Origin: an uncultured Anaerolineaceae bacterium
GTDB taxonomy: Bacteria > Chloroflexota > Anaerolineae > Anaerolineales > Anaerolineaceae
Assembly (NCBI GenBank): GCA_927443345.1
Contig: CAKMKJ010000023.1
Location: forward strand, 1-64,000
Direction: 5' to 3'
Length of the DNA: 64,000 bases
Both the position numbers and the translations under genes were made by a program. Below the pieces are notes generated by a model. The model was not told the DNA's origin. It saw only the letters and a list, made by a program, of their open reading frames with translations, and searched no databases. Each line of letters begins with the position of its first letter. Positions within the stretch are counted from its first letter, which is position 1. Shown here in pieces: positions 28,912-41,263 of this stretch.

Positions 28912-30462
28912 TTAGTTTGTGCTGTTAGAAAATTTCAGCACATTCCAGCTTAGTGCGGGCACTTTCACGTTATACAATCCATTTTCAGGGTCACTCACTT
29001 TTTCTGAAGTAGGGATAACCGTGTTTGGTGCAGCTTCAGTGTTTACTGCTTTGACATCTTCATGGTGTAAAACAATATGTTCATCAAATTTCAACTTTTC
29101 GAAAGCTCTCAGATCACAAGATAATAACATGTCACAGTCGGTGCTTCGATTGACCGCAAAAATGGTCAATTCACCATCATCCCCCAGTACTGCGGTGGCA
29201 TCCAAGAACGGTACATCATCAAAATCTTTGCTGCTGTAAAGCGGAGAGTTGATGATCGGCCTCAGCGCGGTTCCACGACCATAAAGCGAAGCGTGCATAA
29301 AAGGCCAGTAAATGGTTTGAACCCAACAGTTATTTTTGCTGGTCATAATCGGAGCAATAACGTTAATTAACTGCGCGAGACAGGCGATTTTTACACGGTC
29401 AGAATTGCGCAGCAGCGTGATCAACATACTTCCGACCAACAAAGCATCTTCAAAGTTATAAACATCTTCTAACAAATGTAGTGCTTGTCCCCAGCGGTTT
29501 TGGGCCAACACTTGTTTATCTTGTTCGTTGGAGTGATACCAAACATTCCATTCATCAAAAGAAAGGTTGAGTTTCTTCTTGCTGTGTTTTTTTCCGCCAG
29601 CCGCATCACAAAGTGAAACCACCGTCTTGATAAAAGCATCCATATCGACACTCTTGGCCAGGAAGTTTGCGGTGTCGTCAGTCAAGTTTTGATAATAGCG
29701 GTGCAGTGAAACATAATCGACATTGTCGTAGCATTGTTCCAGCATTTCAAGTTCCCACGCCCCAAAGGTGGGCATATCATAAGCGGATGAACCACACGCC
29801 ACTATTTCAATGGAGGGATCTACCCATTTCATCACTTTGGCGGCTTCATTGGCGCTTCTGCCGTATTCATACGCAGTCTTTTGGCCAATCTGCCACGGAC
29901 CGTCCATCTCATTGCCGACACACCATAATTTAATATCAAAGGGTTTTTCAGCGCCATTTTTGCGGCGCATATCGCTCCAGAAGCTTCCGCCAGGATGGTT
30001 GGCATATTCAACTGCATTCCGTGCTTCATCCAAACCACGAGTACCCATGTTTACCGCATACATCACTTTGGTATCCACCTTTTTTGCCCAATCGCAAAAT
30101 TCGTGCATACCAAAGGCATTGGTTTCAGTGGTGAACCAGGCGAGATCCAATTTGACCGGTCTGTGTTCACGCGGACCGACGGAGTCTTCCCAATTGAACC
30201 CCGAAAGAAAATTTCCACCCGGATATCTCACTATGGGAACTCGGAGCTTTTTAACCACATCAATGACATCGAGACGGAATCCGTTCTCATCAGACTTGGG
30301 ATTCTTGGGATCATAAATCCCTTCATAGACAGCACGTCCGAGCTGTTCAATGAACGAGCCAAACAGGCGCTCATCCACCCTTGCAATCGCAAAATCCTTG
30401 TCGAGAATCAGGTTTGCCTTTTTCATGTCATTACTCTTTGATGAGAATTTTTGATCACCCAT
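28912..30462 (-). CDS. Alpha-L-arabinofuranosidase, GH51
   Basis: A 516-residue retaining glycosidase that removes terminal alpha-L-arabinofuranose. The general acid/base is E185 (in VGNEMDGPW) and the nucleophile E304 (in SFDEWN); the spacing of 119 equals that of characterised GH51 enzymes (E175/E294). A catalytic (beta/alpha)8 barrel is followed by the beta-sandwich domain from about 390. No signal peptide, so it acts on imported oligosaccharides. It is the last gene of the GH127-ABC operon, six bases after the permease stop, with AAAGGA in the permease end. Codon 13 is a second possible ATG that fits the usual family N-terminus (MKKANLIL). Confidence 0.93.
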
Positions 30463-30468
30463 AGTAAA

Positions 30469-31335
30469 TTATCCTTTAACGCTTCCGGTAGACATGCCTT
30501 CAATAAAGAATCGTTGAGCAATGAAAAATAATACCATAATCGGCAAAATCGTCATGACTGCTCCAGAAATCAGCAACATGTAATTATTGCCATAAGGCCC
30601 CATCAAGCTGGTTAGGCCAATTGGTAAAGTAAACATCTTTGTGTCAGTGAGTACAAGCAAAGGCCAAATGAAATTGTTCCAAGACATCATTCCAATATAT
30701 ATGCCCATTGCGGCAAAAGCTGGTTTCATAATAGGCATAATCAATCGGAGGAAAATTCCATATTCGCTGCAGCCATCAATTCGCCCTGCGTCTACAATTT
30801 CTTTTGGGATGCTTTGCAGAAATTGACGAAAGAAAAATATGGCGATGGGATGTGCCAGGAATGGCAGCATAATCCCTAAATAAGTATTGTTCAATTTCAT
30901 GGCAATAATTTCGCGATACATGGGCAGCATAAGAATTTCAAAGGGGATCATCATCACAATCAAGACACAGATGAAGATTAGTGTTTTTCCTTTGAACTCA
31001 TAAAAAGCAAAACCATATCCCACCCAGGAACTTATAAACAAGGTTAGGGCAGTTTGAACAACGGTTAGAAAAATACTGTTTCTGAACCAGATAAAGTAAT
31101 TGTGATCGCCGCCGGTAAACAAATACTTATAATTTTCAAGTGTAAAAGTTTCAGCGCTAATATTTAAATTGAAGCCATTGCGAATCACCATTCCACTGTC
31201 TTTTAAGGATGTCACGACAATTGAAATAAAGGGAAGTAAAACAATGACGCCCAAGGCAGTAAAGAATAAAACAAGTAAAACACCCGTGATACGGTGTTCT
31301 CCGGGTTTCAGCCTGGAAAAGGAAAATTTGGACAT
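30469..31335 (-). CDS. CUT1 sugar ABC transporter permease, MalG type
   Basis: 288 residues with six predicted helices and the cytoplasmic EAA loop (VDAGRIDGCSEYGIFLRLIMP, near 185) that docks the ATPase. The C-terminus SVKG is typical of MalG-type permeases. It starts two bases after the MalF-type stop (TAATATG), with its AAGGAG site inside that gene, so the two are coupled. Import of arabinose-containing oligosaccharides is inferred from the operon. Confidence 0.92.
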   Translation of the reverse strand: MSKFSFSRLKPGEHRITGVLLVLFFTALGVIVLLPFISIVVTSLKDSGMVIRNGFNLNISAETFTLENYKYLFTGGDHNYFIWFRNSIFLTVVQTALTLFISSWVGYGFAFYEFKGKTLIFICVLIVMMIPFEILMLPMYREIIAMKLNNTYLGIMLPFLAHPIAIFFFRQFLQSIPKEIVDAGRIDGCSEYGIFLRLIMPIMKPAFAAMGIYIGMMSWNNFIWPLLVLTDTKMFTLPIGLTSLMGPYGNNYMLLISGAVMTILPIMVLFFIAQRFFIEGMSTGSVKG

Positions 31336-31336
31336 A

Positions 31337-32230
31337 TTATTTGCTCTCCTTTTTCAAACCACCTGTCAATTTTAGCTGAACCAGGTTAGTGCTGAGAACA
31401 ACCACAAGTAAAATCAACCCAATGGCAGAAGCAAGTCCTAGCTGTCCCTGGCTGATACCGTTCTTGTAAATTAATCCAACAATAGTCAATCCAATATTAT
31501 GGGGTGAAGATTTGCCCGCCCATAACATTTGGCTTTCTGCAAACATGGCCAAACCACCATATATGCTAATCGTCAGCAAATAAATAATGGTTGGTTTAAG
31601 CATGGGAATGGTGAGATACCTGAAACGCTGCCAGGTATTCGCCCCATCAATTTCGCAAGCCTCATAAAGCTCAACTGGTATGCTATTCAAACCAGAAAGG
31701 AAATAGATAATATTAATCCCTGTCCAACGCCAACTTGCCAGAGTCACCATAACGATCATGGCAGGCCACTGCAAACTTAACCAACGCACTTTTTCTCCCC
31801 CGAATAAATTGATTATGACGCTGTTTACCAGCGAAGCATTGGTTTCATTAAACATAAATCTAAAAGTAAGGCCAGCCACAACCACACTACACAAAAGGGG
31901 CATGAAAAGAGCAGCGCGGTAAAGACCGCTTGCCCGCATAGACTTGCTATTTAACATAACTGCAAAAGTAAGCGGAAAAGGGATGAGCAAGAGCAGAGTT
32001 AACACCGTATAGATTAGGGTGTTACGAATTGCTATTGGAAAATCTGAATTATTTAACAGCATTCGATAGTTATCAAGCCCAATGAATTGAATATCCCCAA
32101 TTTTGACACTTTGAAAACTCATCACAATCGTGCTGCCAATTGAATAAACAAAGAAAACCAGAAATATTAATACAAAGGGCAAAACGAAAATATATGGAGC
32201 TACCTTTTGTGAGTTAATTTTTATTTTCAT
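31337..32230 (-). CDS. CUT1 sugar ABC transporter permease, MalF type
   Basis: 297 residues, six helices, with the EAA loop (YEACEIDGANTWQRFRYLTIP, near 200). Partner of the following MalG-type permease and of the binding protein encoded upstream. No ATP-binding subunit is encoded nearby, as is common for CUT1 systems that share an MsmX/UgpC-like ATPase. The start codon has only a weak ribosome binding site (CTGAG). Confidence 0.92.
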   Translation of the reverse strand: MKIKINSQKVAPYIFVLPFVLIFLVFFVYSIGSTIVMSFQSVKIGDIQFIGLDNYRMLLNNSDFPIAIRNTLIYTVLTLLLLIPFPLTFAVMLNSKSMRASGLYRAALFMPLLCSVVVAGLTFRFMFNETNASLVNSVIINLFGGEKVRWLSLQWPAMIVMVTLASWRWTGINIIYFLSGLNSIPVELYEACEIDGANTWQRFRYLTIPMLKPTIIYLLTISIYGGLAMFAESQMLWAGKSSPHNIGLTIVGLIYKNGISQGQLGLASAIGLILLVVVLSTNLVQLKLTGGLKKESK

Positions 32231-40495: not shown

Positions 40496-40531
40496 AATAG
40501 AAATATACGACGATCACTATTTGAAGTCAAT

Positions 40532-40560
40532 ATACAAATGGTATACAATATGCATATAAT
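40532..40560 (+). promoter_or_regulatory. Promoter/operator region between hypE and gntR
   Basis: TATAAT at 40555-40560 is a -10 box for the GntR gene. TGGTATACAA at 40539-40548 is close to the GTATAC-centred operators of FCD-type GntR regulators. TACAATATGCATAT at 40544-40557 recurs with one mismatch in the GH42/GH39 promoter region at 44365-44378. Confidence 0.55.
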
Positions 40561-40597
40561 TATTACATAGTCATCTTATCGAGATCAGGAGCAAAAA

Positions 40598-41263
40598 ATG
40601 GCACAAGCCAACCAAAATCCGCAGCGCGAAAGCGATCGCATCGAAAACGAACTGCGCCGACTGATCTTGACGCTTGAGCTTGAACCCGGCCTGGCTGTCA
40701 GCGAAGCCAGCCTGATGAAACAATACAATTGGGGACGCACCCCCCTGCGCGAAGCATTTCAACGCCTCGCAGAGCAATCACTGCTGCAAATCATCCCTCA
40801 TCACGGTGTGGTGGTCACCCCTTTAAACATCTTCGAATTCGTTGAAGTGATGGACGCCATGAGCATGGTCATCGGCTCAGCCGCTGCGCTGGCATGCAAA
40901 CATGTGACCGAGGCACAACTGGGCAAGTTAGATGAGTTGGTCGAGCAAAGCTCTACCGCAACAATAGCCGGTGACTTTGTGCGCGTGGCCGAACTGGATT
41001 ACGACTTTCACCGCGAACTGGCTGACGCAACCGGCAACCGCTACCTGCGTGAATATCTGCTTCACCTGCACCGCATCGCCACCCGATTCAATTTCGCCGC
41101 CTGGAAGCGAGACCGCAATTCCGCACCATCGCTTGAAGAACACCGCCAACTAGCCGCATTGTTCCGTCAAAGGGATGCGGAACAGGTCAAAACAGTCATG
41201 CGCGAACACATAGAAAACGCCCGTTCACGCTTGATGGGAAGTCTACACCCAACCGAGTTTTAA
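40598..41263 (+). CDS. GntR family regulator, FCD subfamily
   Basis: 221 residues: N-terminal winged helix (residues about 10-75, EASLMKQYNWGRTPLREAFQRLAEQ) and a helical FCD ligand domain (about 85-215) with the metal-binding Asp/His set (DYDFHRELADATGN and later His). FCD regulators respond to small organic and amino acids. It diverges from the hydroxyproline dehydratase and activase genes, so it is probably their regulator, with hydroxyproline or a product as ligand. AGGAG precedes the ATG. Confidence 0.9.
   Translation: MAQANQNPQRESDRIENELRRLILTLELEPGLAVSEASLMKQYNWGRTPLREAFQRLAEQSLLQIIPHHGVVVTPLNIFEFVEVMDAMSMVIGSAAALACKHVTEAQLGKLDELVEQSSTATIAGDFVRVAELDYDFHRELADATGNRYLREYLLHLHRIATRFNFAAWKRDRNSAPSLEEHRQLAALFRQRDAEQVKTVMREHIENARSRLMGSLHPTEF

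Follow-up and report, generated by a model that had tools for sequence, protein, structure and literature searches.

The question raised by this locus is whether genes for the removal of arabinose and genes for the use of hydroxyproline, found next to each other, serve one and the same plant molecule. The hydroxyproline of extensins and arabinogalactan proteins carries arabinose, and glycoproteins rich in hydroxyproline are a store of both nitrogen and arabinose in the plant cell wall. The known systems, as far as the available parts of the sources go, stop at the sugar (B. longum and a proposal for Latescibacteria) or begin at free hydroxyproline (Clostridioides difficile). For the window analysed here, a stretch of 64,000 nucleotides from an uncultured Anaerolineaceae bacterium, a sequence-only reading had proposed a joint locus for both halves of a hydroxyproline-O-arabinoside. 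All the genes on which that proposal was built (GH127, GH51, importer, LacI, HypD, activase and GntR) are present, at the positions given below.

The genes of GH127, GH51 and a sugar importer lie together in a single compact unit. The GH51 alpha-L-arabinofuranosidase (28912-30462, (-)) scores 757 bits with the NCBIfam ArfA model NF051901 (cut-off 625) and 705 bits with PDB 1pz3, its closest solved relative; no signal peptide was seen when its N-terminus was inspected by eye, and the enzyme is probably intracellular. Next to it lie two permeases of a sugar ABC importer, one of the MalG/UgpE side (30469-31335, (-)) and one of the MalF/UgpA side (31337-32230, (-)), both scoring under the cut-offs of the named models, and a sugar-binding protein (32363-33736, (-)) with an N-terminus that looks lipoprotein-like by eye. 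The PDB matches of this last protein are weak and unspecific, they do not include 6lce (which we take to be a binder of beta-Ara2), and its specificity cannot be read from the sequence. The GH127 beta-L-arabinofuranosidase (33777-35648, (-); PF07944, 338 bits) keeps its catalytic and zinc residues: E310, E326, C328, C406 and C407 align with positions 322, 338, 340, 417 and 418 of HypBA1, of which E322 and E338 are presumably catalytic or zinc residues. According to the available part of the source, GH127 enzymes use a Cys nucleophile (C417) and zinc-binding cysteines (PMC10728902). The description of the window enzyme as a HypBA1-like GH127 with all catalytic Glu and Cys holds for these residues and fails for the closest solved relative, which is 4qjy (550 bits) and not HypBA1 (418 bits); since 4qjy outscores HypBA1 among the solved GH127 enzymes, the protein does not fall into the narrow, hydroxyproline-arabinoside-specific HypBA1 group. 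Both 4qjy (GH127) and 1pz3 (GH51) are, we assume, Geobacillus enzymes that belong to an arabinan system, and we know of no hydroxyproline genes beside theirs. In this unit, which has the LacI gene beside it, a short arabinoside would be imported, and its alpha- and beta-L-arabinofuranose linkages would be cut intracellularly by GH51 and GH127.

The second unit concerns the amino acid. Its glycyl radical enzyme (37172-39556, (-)) scores 1308.8 bits with the trans-4-hydroxy-L-proline dehydratase model NF043068 (cut-off 1100), with PDB 6vxc as its solved counterpart, and keeps, at +4 positions, all ten residues that were mutated in the published HypD. In the numbering of the solved enzyme these are His160, Asp278, Ser334, Asp339, Phe340, Cys434, Glu436, Tyr450, Thr645 and Gly765 (PMC7077986, as given in the available part), and they are invariant across 13 aligned sequences. 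Judged by the curated model and the active site, the enzyme is HypD, as had been claimed. A putative radical SAM activase of HypD (39593-40495, (-)) adjoins it, its best model being the HypD activase model NF043069 (358.9 bits, under the cut-off of 425). In this unit, which has the GntR gene beside it, HypD would turn free trans-4-hydroxyproline into P5C, and the ProC of the genome would then make proline from it. GH121, arabinose isomerase and proline-side enzymes had been listed as missing; the absence of GH121 stands for the arabinose unit, each of whose genes is assigned to another family, while two AraA arabinose isomerases and one ProC-type P5C reductase are found elsewhere in the genome.

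The two units are also separate in their regulatory regions. The LacI-family gene (35952-36989, (+)) is divergent from the GH127 unit, and the GntR/FCD gene (40598-41263, (+)) is divergent from the HypD unit. Upstream of GH127 there are two copies of a putative LacI operator, GTTAAACGATTAAC, a proximal one (35675-35688, (-)) and a distal one (35749-35762, (-)), the latter just downstream of the -10 of a promoter-like TTGACA-17-TATACT at 35806-35778. The element occurs in two copies in four genomes of the genus (this one included) and in one copy in G131; with up to 2 mismatches, the two sites of the window give 4 matches (both strands each) against 0.46 expected, there are none elsewhere in the window, and the form GTTAAWCGWTTAAC was found only at the GH127 promoter among 216 loci scanned. 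The HypD promoter carries a different conserved element, ATATTGTATACCATTTGTATATTGA (40527-40551, (-)), a putative GntR operator that the scans found only at this promoter. The assignment of each regulator to its element is putative, being drawn from their positions; shared control of HypD by LacI was looked for and not found, the LacI-side element being confined, in the sequences scanned, to the GH127 promoter and the GntR-side element to that of HypD. The LacI and HypD genes face each other across a perfect inverted repeat of 12 bp (37018-37056, no strand assigned), a possible terminator, so that the window seemingly holds two transcription units, and no promoter or regulator common to both halves was found in it.

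Comparison within the genus leads in the same direction. The pairing had been expected in close relatives, and wherever a genome of the genus holds both this type of GH127 and HypD (four genomes), no more than about 20 kb separates the two units; in two of these four (the window's own genome being one of the four), however, 15-20 kb of other genes lie between them, the HypD-GH127 distance being 15.2 kb in G129 and 20.1 kb in G136. G126 has the HypD part (with a broken HypD frame) and GH51 but no GH127-importer block there, and G131 has this GH127 unit and no HypD match at E 1e-150. The adjacency seen in the window was consequently rejected as evidence by itself.

Taken together, these observations give roughly an even chance to the reading that we prefer: the window would hold, side by side, two catabolic units that belong to an island rich in glycosidases, with a plant glycoprotein rich in hydroxyproline (extensin or arabinogalactan protein) as their likeliest common source, and certain joint runs in relatives, described below, would dismantle hydroxyproline-arabinosides. 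The conserved island, which probably serves plant cell-wall material, continues with a protein of no known family (41365-42162, (+)), conserved beside GntR in four congeners, and with GH42 (42234-44291, (-)) and GH39 (44421-45887, (+)) glycosidases. The strongest competitor, somewhat short of an even chance, is that the neighbours are functionally unrelated, an arabinan or arabino-oligosaccharide unit under LacI and a general hydroxyproline-use unit under GntR that were juxtaposed by the loss of intervening genes. It is favoured by the genes that G129 and G136 keep between the units (HK, RR, MFS, GH38, TetR, GH31 and GH35), by G000, where the lack of any GH31 match fits such a loss, by the separate regulator genes and promoter elements, by the likeness of GH127 and GH51 to 4qjy and 1pz3, and by the 28 of the 80 HypD genomes counted in the class that have no GH127. 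Against it stand the proximity of the units wherever the genus has both (four genomes), and the existence in other lineages of loci in which the same functions form one run.

At the level of the class, GH127 near HypD is commoner than under uniform placement or in a GH31 control, the comparison with chance being the check that the sequence-only reading had called for. Of the 80 HypD genomes, 52 have both genes, and in 9 of these no more than 5 kb separates GH127 from HypD; the other 43 do not show such a pair, though many contigs are short. By genus this corresponds to 5 of 32, against 0.16 expected, and the four linked genera that are left without the discovery genus give a Poisson P of 2.6e-5. 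GH51 alone is found within 5 kb in 3 of 44 genomes and 2 of 31 genera, which does not differ significantly from GH31 (Fisher P 0.20). The test is confounded by the clustering of catabolic genes, and the reading of the whole signal as an artefact of such clustering and of the sampling of related genomes is improbable: a null of uniform placement is generous, several of the linked genomes are congeners, and against the single control family the Fisher P by genus is 0.017, or 0.039 once the discovery genus is left out, yet GH31, with more matches than GH127 (139 vs 87), is within 5 or 10 kb of HypD in 0 of 61 genomes and 0 of 38 genera, and at least seven changes of the linked state are required on a quick tree of HypD with 76 rows.

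These counts rest on two GH127 searches (E 1e-20 and 1e-15) and on GH51 and GH31 lists at E 1e-10, the GH31 count being read by eye from per-genome totals and matches on the HypD contig. Nine genomes with HypD matches that were fragments or under the cut-off (G002, G077, G354, G369, G417, G433, G445, G465 and G504) were left out, and GH127 searches of all nine found no linked pair; one of the two GH127 pieces of G531 was also left out. The HypD ends of G126, G137, G333, G364, G482 and G502 were set individually from search matches. Outside the count are the family f53 HypD genomes G532, G533 and G535, plus G458, none of which gave an arabinosidase match by tblastn. The tree, from which G137 and several HypD fragments are omitted, treats G129 and G136 as unlinked and marks as linked G164 (GH51 only) and also G527, a genome that the linkage count does not take as linked. 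In G527 the HypD contig and a contig with binding protein-permease-GH127-GH127 overlap by exactly 33 bp inside a permease gene, a join that is uncertain because permeases are duplicated; for G402, G452, G137 and G320 no contig-end overlap of 12-249 bp was found.

The joint locus proposed for the window, which there gives way to two units with two regulator genes and two promoter elements, is found as same-strand runs in other lineages. In G175 the order is binding protein-permease-permease-GH127-like-GH51-aminopeptidase P-HypD, with gaps of 11-125 bp between the longest frames; G209 has the same order, with one stop in the peptidase frame. In G164 it is binding protein-permease-permease-GH51-prolidase-activase-HypD, GH51 being the only arabinosidase, and in G364, G333 and G482 HypD is followed on its own strand by GH127, at a distance of 86-105 bp. 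Between the G175 and G164 runs, identity is 81% for HypD but only 21-34% for the importer proteins and the peptidases, and for this reason the two gene sets look separately assembled. The G175 and G164 types of run, from two lineages, appear to bring together genes for both halves of a hydroxyproline-O-arabinoside, the sugar and the amino acid, peptidase included: a hydroxyproline-arabinoside or short glycopeptide would be taken up, its arabinose removed, hydroxyproline released and then dehydrated. The link between the halves is weak in the window and the general idea fares better across the class; the earlier proposal is partly supported. A more ambitious version, which we hold tentatively and place well below an even chance, is that certain members of the class carry an operon dedicated to this use, whose sugar-type ABC importer takes intact hydroxyproline-O-arabinosides or short hydroxyproline glycopeptides for full cytoplasmic breakdown (arabinose by GH51 and GH127, hydroxyproline by an M24 peptidase, P5C by HypD), the window being a split, separately regulated version. 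Gene families, conserved catalytic residues, gene order, the separate promoter elements of the window and the recurrent linkage in the class are observations; all the substrates, the import of glycosylated hydroxyproline and the joint use of both units in this organism are inferred.

It is unlikely that the joint runs serve general peptide use (collagen or mixed protein), with peptidase and HypD as the core and the sugar genes as passengers: among the named HypD loci examined, the best 80 of 568 stretches that were confirmed, 15 have relatives of M24 peptidases (24-32% identity) close to HypD and none of these 15 has an arabinosidase, and M42 peptidases lie near HypD in G364, G502 and G413, but the importers of the joint runs are of the sugar type (PF01547/PF00528), their arabinosidases come from different GH127 and GH51 branches, and an arabino-oligosaccharide-binding protein, 6rjy, is the best match of the G175 binding protein (93.6 bits, the next match 61), while the binding protein of G164 has no relative as clear as this. 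A universal HypD-arabinosidase link was rejected for the sample of named loci, where neither GH127 nor GH51 was found in any of the best 80 of 568; 16 of these are Chloroflexi by title, 64 carry no such title, and 34 have 5 kb on both sides of HypD.

The HypAA/HypBA2/HypBA1 cluster of B. longum (GH43, GH121, GH127 and an ABC importer) acts on arabinose attached to hydroxyproline, according to the available part of the source (PMC7263609), and has GH127 and a binding-protein-dependent sugar importer in common with the window unit, which has GH51 in place of GH121 and GH43. That account, as far as it is available, has the free disaccharide as the likely import and names three enzymes and a transporter but no peptidase or HypD, whereas here HypD adjoins and in relatives it belongs to the same run. 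In the HypD and HypD-activase system of C. difficile, the dehydratase shares enzyme family and active site with the window HypD. In Clostridiales of the gut the HypD gene lies close to one for a P5C reductase and serves Stickland fermentation (PMC7077986, available part), whereas in this genome ProC is elsewhere and sugar genes are the neighbours of HypD. The proposal for Latescibacteria, in which an uncultured anaerobe uses hydroxyproline-rich glycoproteins (extensin and arabinogalactan protein) with GH127, covers in its available part the sugars and general peptides, without HypD or a joint locus (PMC4454575). Searches of the open-access literature for these parts in combination listed no joint locus, and no listed paper paired glycyl radical enzymes with arabinosidases; the runs described here would be a new combination of known components, limited to certain lineages. 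A run that unites an importer, arabinosidases, an Xaa-Pro peptidase and HypD would constitute a complete anaerobic route, tie glycyl radical chemistry to plant litter and make the binding proteins named above candidates for study.

On the other side of the locus, the gene next after GH51 encodes a PD40 beta-propeller protein (27841-28722, (-); PF07676), and its place beside GH51 is conserved in the genus, with synteny in G129 and G126.

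The gene positions assigned to the window by the sequence-only reading were all borne out. The first unit comprises GH127, a binding protein, two permeases and GH51 on the minus strand, with gaps of 40, 132, 1 and 6 bp, and is divergent from LacI; as proposed, GH127 lies in one unit with GH51 and a sugar importer (same strand, gaps of 1–132 bp). The second unit, activase and HypD (the glycyl radical enzyme trans-4-hydroxy-L-proline dehydratase), is also on the minus strand and diverges from GntR. Between the converging LacI and HypD genes lies a 12-bp perfect inverted repeat (37018–37056).

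The presence of a HypD-type dehydratase beyond the LacI gene is well supported: with the curated model for trans-4-hydroxy-L-proline dehydratase, whose cut-off is 1100, the protein reaches 1308.8 bits, and it keeps, at an offset of +4, the ten residues that the HypD structure paper in eLife gives as probed by mutation (His160, Asp278, Ser334, Asp339, Phe340, Cys434, Glu436, Tyr450, Thr645 and Gly765; PMC7077986). These residues are unchanged across 13 aligned sequences, and the closest solved structure, 6vxc, is HypD itself. The top model for the activase is HypD activase, at 358.9 bits, below the cut-off of 425. The alignment likewise upholds the claim that GH127 retains all the catalytic Glu and Cys residues; the description of this protein as similar to HypBA1, the founding GH127, holds for that residue set, but its nearest solved structure is 4qjy and not HypBA1. 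For GH51 the closest solved relative is 1pz3. The parts that had been called missing are to some extent encoded elsewhere in the genome, namely P5C reductase (one copy), where P5C is the HypD product, and arabinose isomerase (two copies).

In the LacI–GH127 intergenic alignment of five genomes of the genus, the source genome included, the element GTTAAACGATTAAC occurs in two copies in four genomes and as a single copy in G131. The copies in the window are at 35675–35688 and 35749–35762, the latter directly downstream of a promoter-like TTGACA-17-TATACT, and a search of the window that allowed up to two mismatches found no other; the GTTAAWCGWTTAAC form of the GH127-promoter element had no further occurrence among the 216 loci scanned. 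The HypD–GntR intergenic region of five genomes carries a different element, whose version in the window, ATATTGTATACCATTTGTATATTGA, overlies a promoter-like site. Because the elements at the two promoters are distinct, the units look separately controlled in the source organism. Judging by position, GTTAAACGATTAAC and ATATTGTATACCATTTGTATATTGA would be putative operators of LacI and GntR, respectively. The idea of one locus covering both the sugars and the amino acid thus stands as regards neighbouring genes, but not as regards joint control in the window. Beside the second unit, a 265-residue protein (41365–42162) without a Pfam or NCBIfam match adjoins GntR–HypD in four congeners at 67–78% identity, and could be part of the hydroxyproline (Hyp) unit.

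A family-level search for HypD and GH127 covered 147 genomes. Within the genus, HypD and the window-type GH127 co-occur in the source genome (G000), G129, G136 and G137. The pairing is only partly kept in these close relatives: the two units are adjacent in G137, as in G000, but 15.2 kb apart in G129 and 20.1 kb apart in G136, and the G126 locus, which retains HypD, GH51 and many of the genes shared by the G129 and G136 intervals, lacks the LacI–GH127–binding protein–permease block; the sole GH127 match of that genome is on a different contig. The intervening genes common to G129 and G136 encode a histidine kinase, a response regulator, MFS, GH38, TetR, GH31 and GH35. No GH31 match was found anywhere in G000, which fits the loss of this stretch; in G137, GH31 and GH35 are located on a separate contig. 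In G131 the GH127 unit is present on a contig that terminates within LacI, and the genome has no HypD match at E 1e-150. GH42 adjoins the HypD unit in G126, G129, G136 and G137, and GH39 neighbours GH42 in the first three. Given this variable gene content around HypD, the setting is a glycosidase island whose exact neighbours vary. The G126 HypD itself (L047:8574–10920) has a frame broken, by sequencing error or decay, about 70% along, with one internal stop and two abutting matches.

Of 396 genomes of the class, 67 gave a HypD match with an E-value of 1e-200 or lower. GH127 was searched for in the 66 others of these, and GH51 and the control family GH31 in 80 HypD genomes of the family and class. 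GH127 lies within 5 kb of HypD in 9 of the 52 genomes having both (5 of 32 genera), GH51 in 3 of 44 (2 of 31 genera) and GH31 in none of 61 (0 of 38 genera). Uniform placement would give 0.16 GH127 genera, and with the discovery genus omitted the four that are left give a Poisson P of 2.6e-5. The pairing therefore exceeds chance by this measure and against GH31; the excess looks real but moderate by the stricter comparison, as the genus-level Fisher P against GH31 is 0.017 (0.039 without the discovery genus). For GH51 the corresponding P is 0.20. A quickly built tree of 76 HypD rows, ten of them linked (G164 and G527 included), requires at least seven changes in the arabinosidase-linked state. 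Other genes intervene between the close GH127 and HypD of G142 and G320.

G175 (locus L060) has a same-strand run: binding protein (4048–5487), permeases (5567–6571 and 6583–7479), a GH127-like gene (7499–9358), GH51 (9383–10867), an M24 peptidase with an aminopeptidase P N-domain (10993–12564, start approximate) and HypD (12586–14958). The GH127-like protein is distant (PF07944, 101.6 bits), yet it retains the Glu/Cys set; the top solved relatives of the peptidase are Xaa-Pro aminopeptidases, and the binding protein best matches 6rjy, an arabino-oligosaccharide binder (93.6 bits; runner-up 61). G209 has the same gene order, with the first six genes 88–94% identical; its M24 peptidase (L059:11035–12624, start approximate) has one in-frame stop, either a real change or a sequencing error, whereas the G175 peptidase reads through without interruption. 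In G164 (L151), of a different family, the run is binding protein, permease, permease, GH51, prolidase-type M24, activase and HypD; no GH127 was matched in this genome, and for the binding protein of the run no clear arabinose-type relative emerged. Compared with G175, the importer proteins and peptidase are 21–34% identical and HypD 81%.

In G364, G333 and G482, GH127 is downstream of HypD on the same strand after 86–105 bp, with M42 aminopeptidases near the pair in G364; G502, of the same genus, is without it. By tblastn, no activase was found next to HypD in G175, G209 or this genus. Three full-length HypD copies of the genus (L056:8389–10833, L055:1760–4204 and L064:7356–9800), that of G502 among those aligned, carry a 26-residue insert after about residue 575 of the window HypD. 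In G527, a permease–M24–activase–HypD contig and a second contig with binding protein, permeases and two GH127 share an exact 33-bp end overlap; they likely join, and were excluded from the linkage count. The run in L213 (G527:C245) holds several same-type permease copies and two different GH127-like genes with a binding protein.

By eye, the GH127-like and GH51 proteins of the joint runs have no signal peptide, and this, together with the importer, peptidase and HypD, suggests that glycosylated Hyp or a short glycopeptide is taken up into the cell. There, GH51 may take off alpha arabinose and GH127 beta arabinoses, a Xaa-Pro peptidase may liberate Hyp, HypD would convert it to P5C, and P5C reductase would yield proline. 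The window itself is most simply read as part of a single island with two units that may both act on a common plant material.

Among the best 80 of 568 HypD stretches in named genomes, 16 are titled Chloroflexi, Anaerolineae, Anaerolineales, Thermoflexales, Levilinea or Anaerolinea, and 15 have an M24 match by tblastn (24–32% identity); GH127 or GH51 was found in none, with just 34 of the 80 having 5 kb on each side. In agreement with the earlier claim, the portion of the open literature searched yielded no described locus joining arabinosidases and HypD. For an uncultured anaerobe that possesses GH127, Hyp-rich glycoproteins have already been proposed as a substrate (PMC4454575).

Elsewhere in the window, 10618–16179 encodes an 1853-residue protein with DUF2298, PMT_2 and helix-hairpin-helix domains. 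A second glycan unit (49781–61753) contains GH3 (minus strand), a xylose-isomerase-like TIM barrel and an FGGY kinase, all three with Pfam matches, and a LacI-like regulator gene and a binding-protein ABC importer, assigned by eye.
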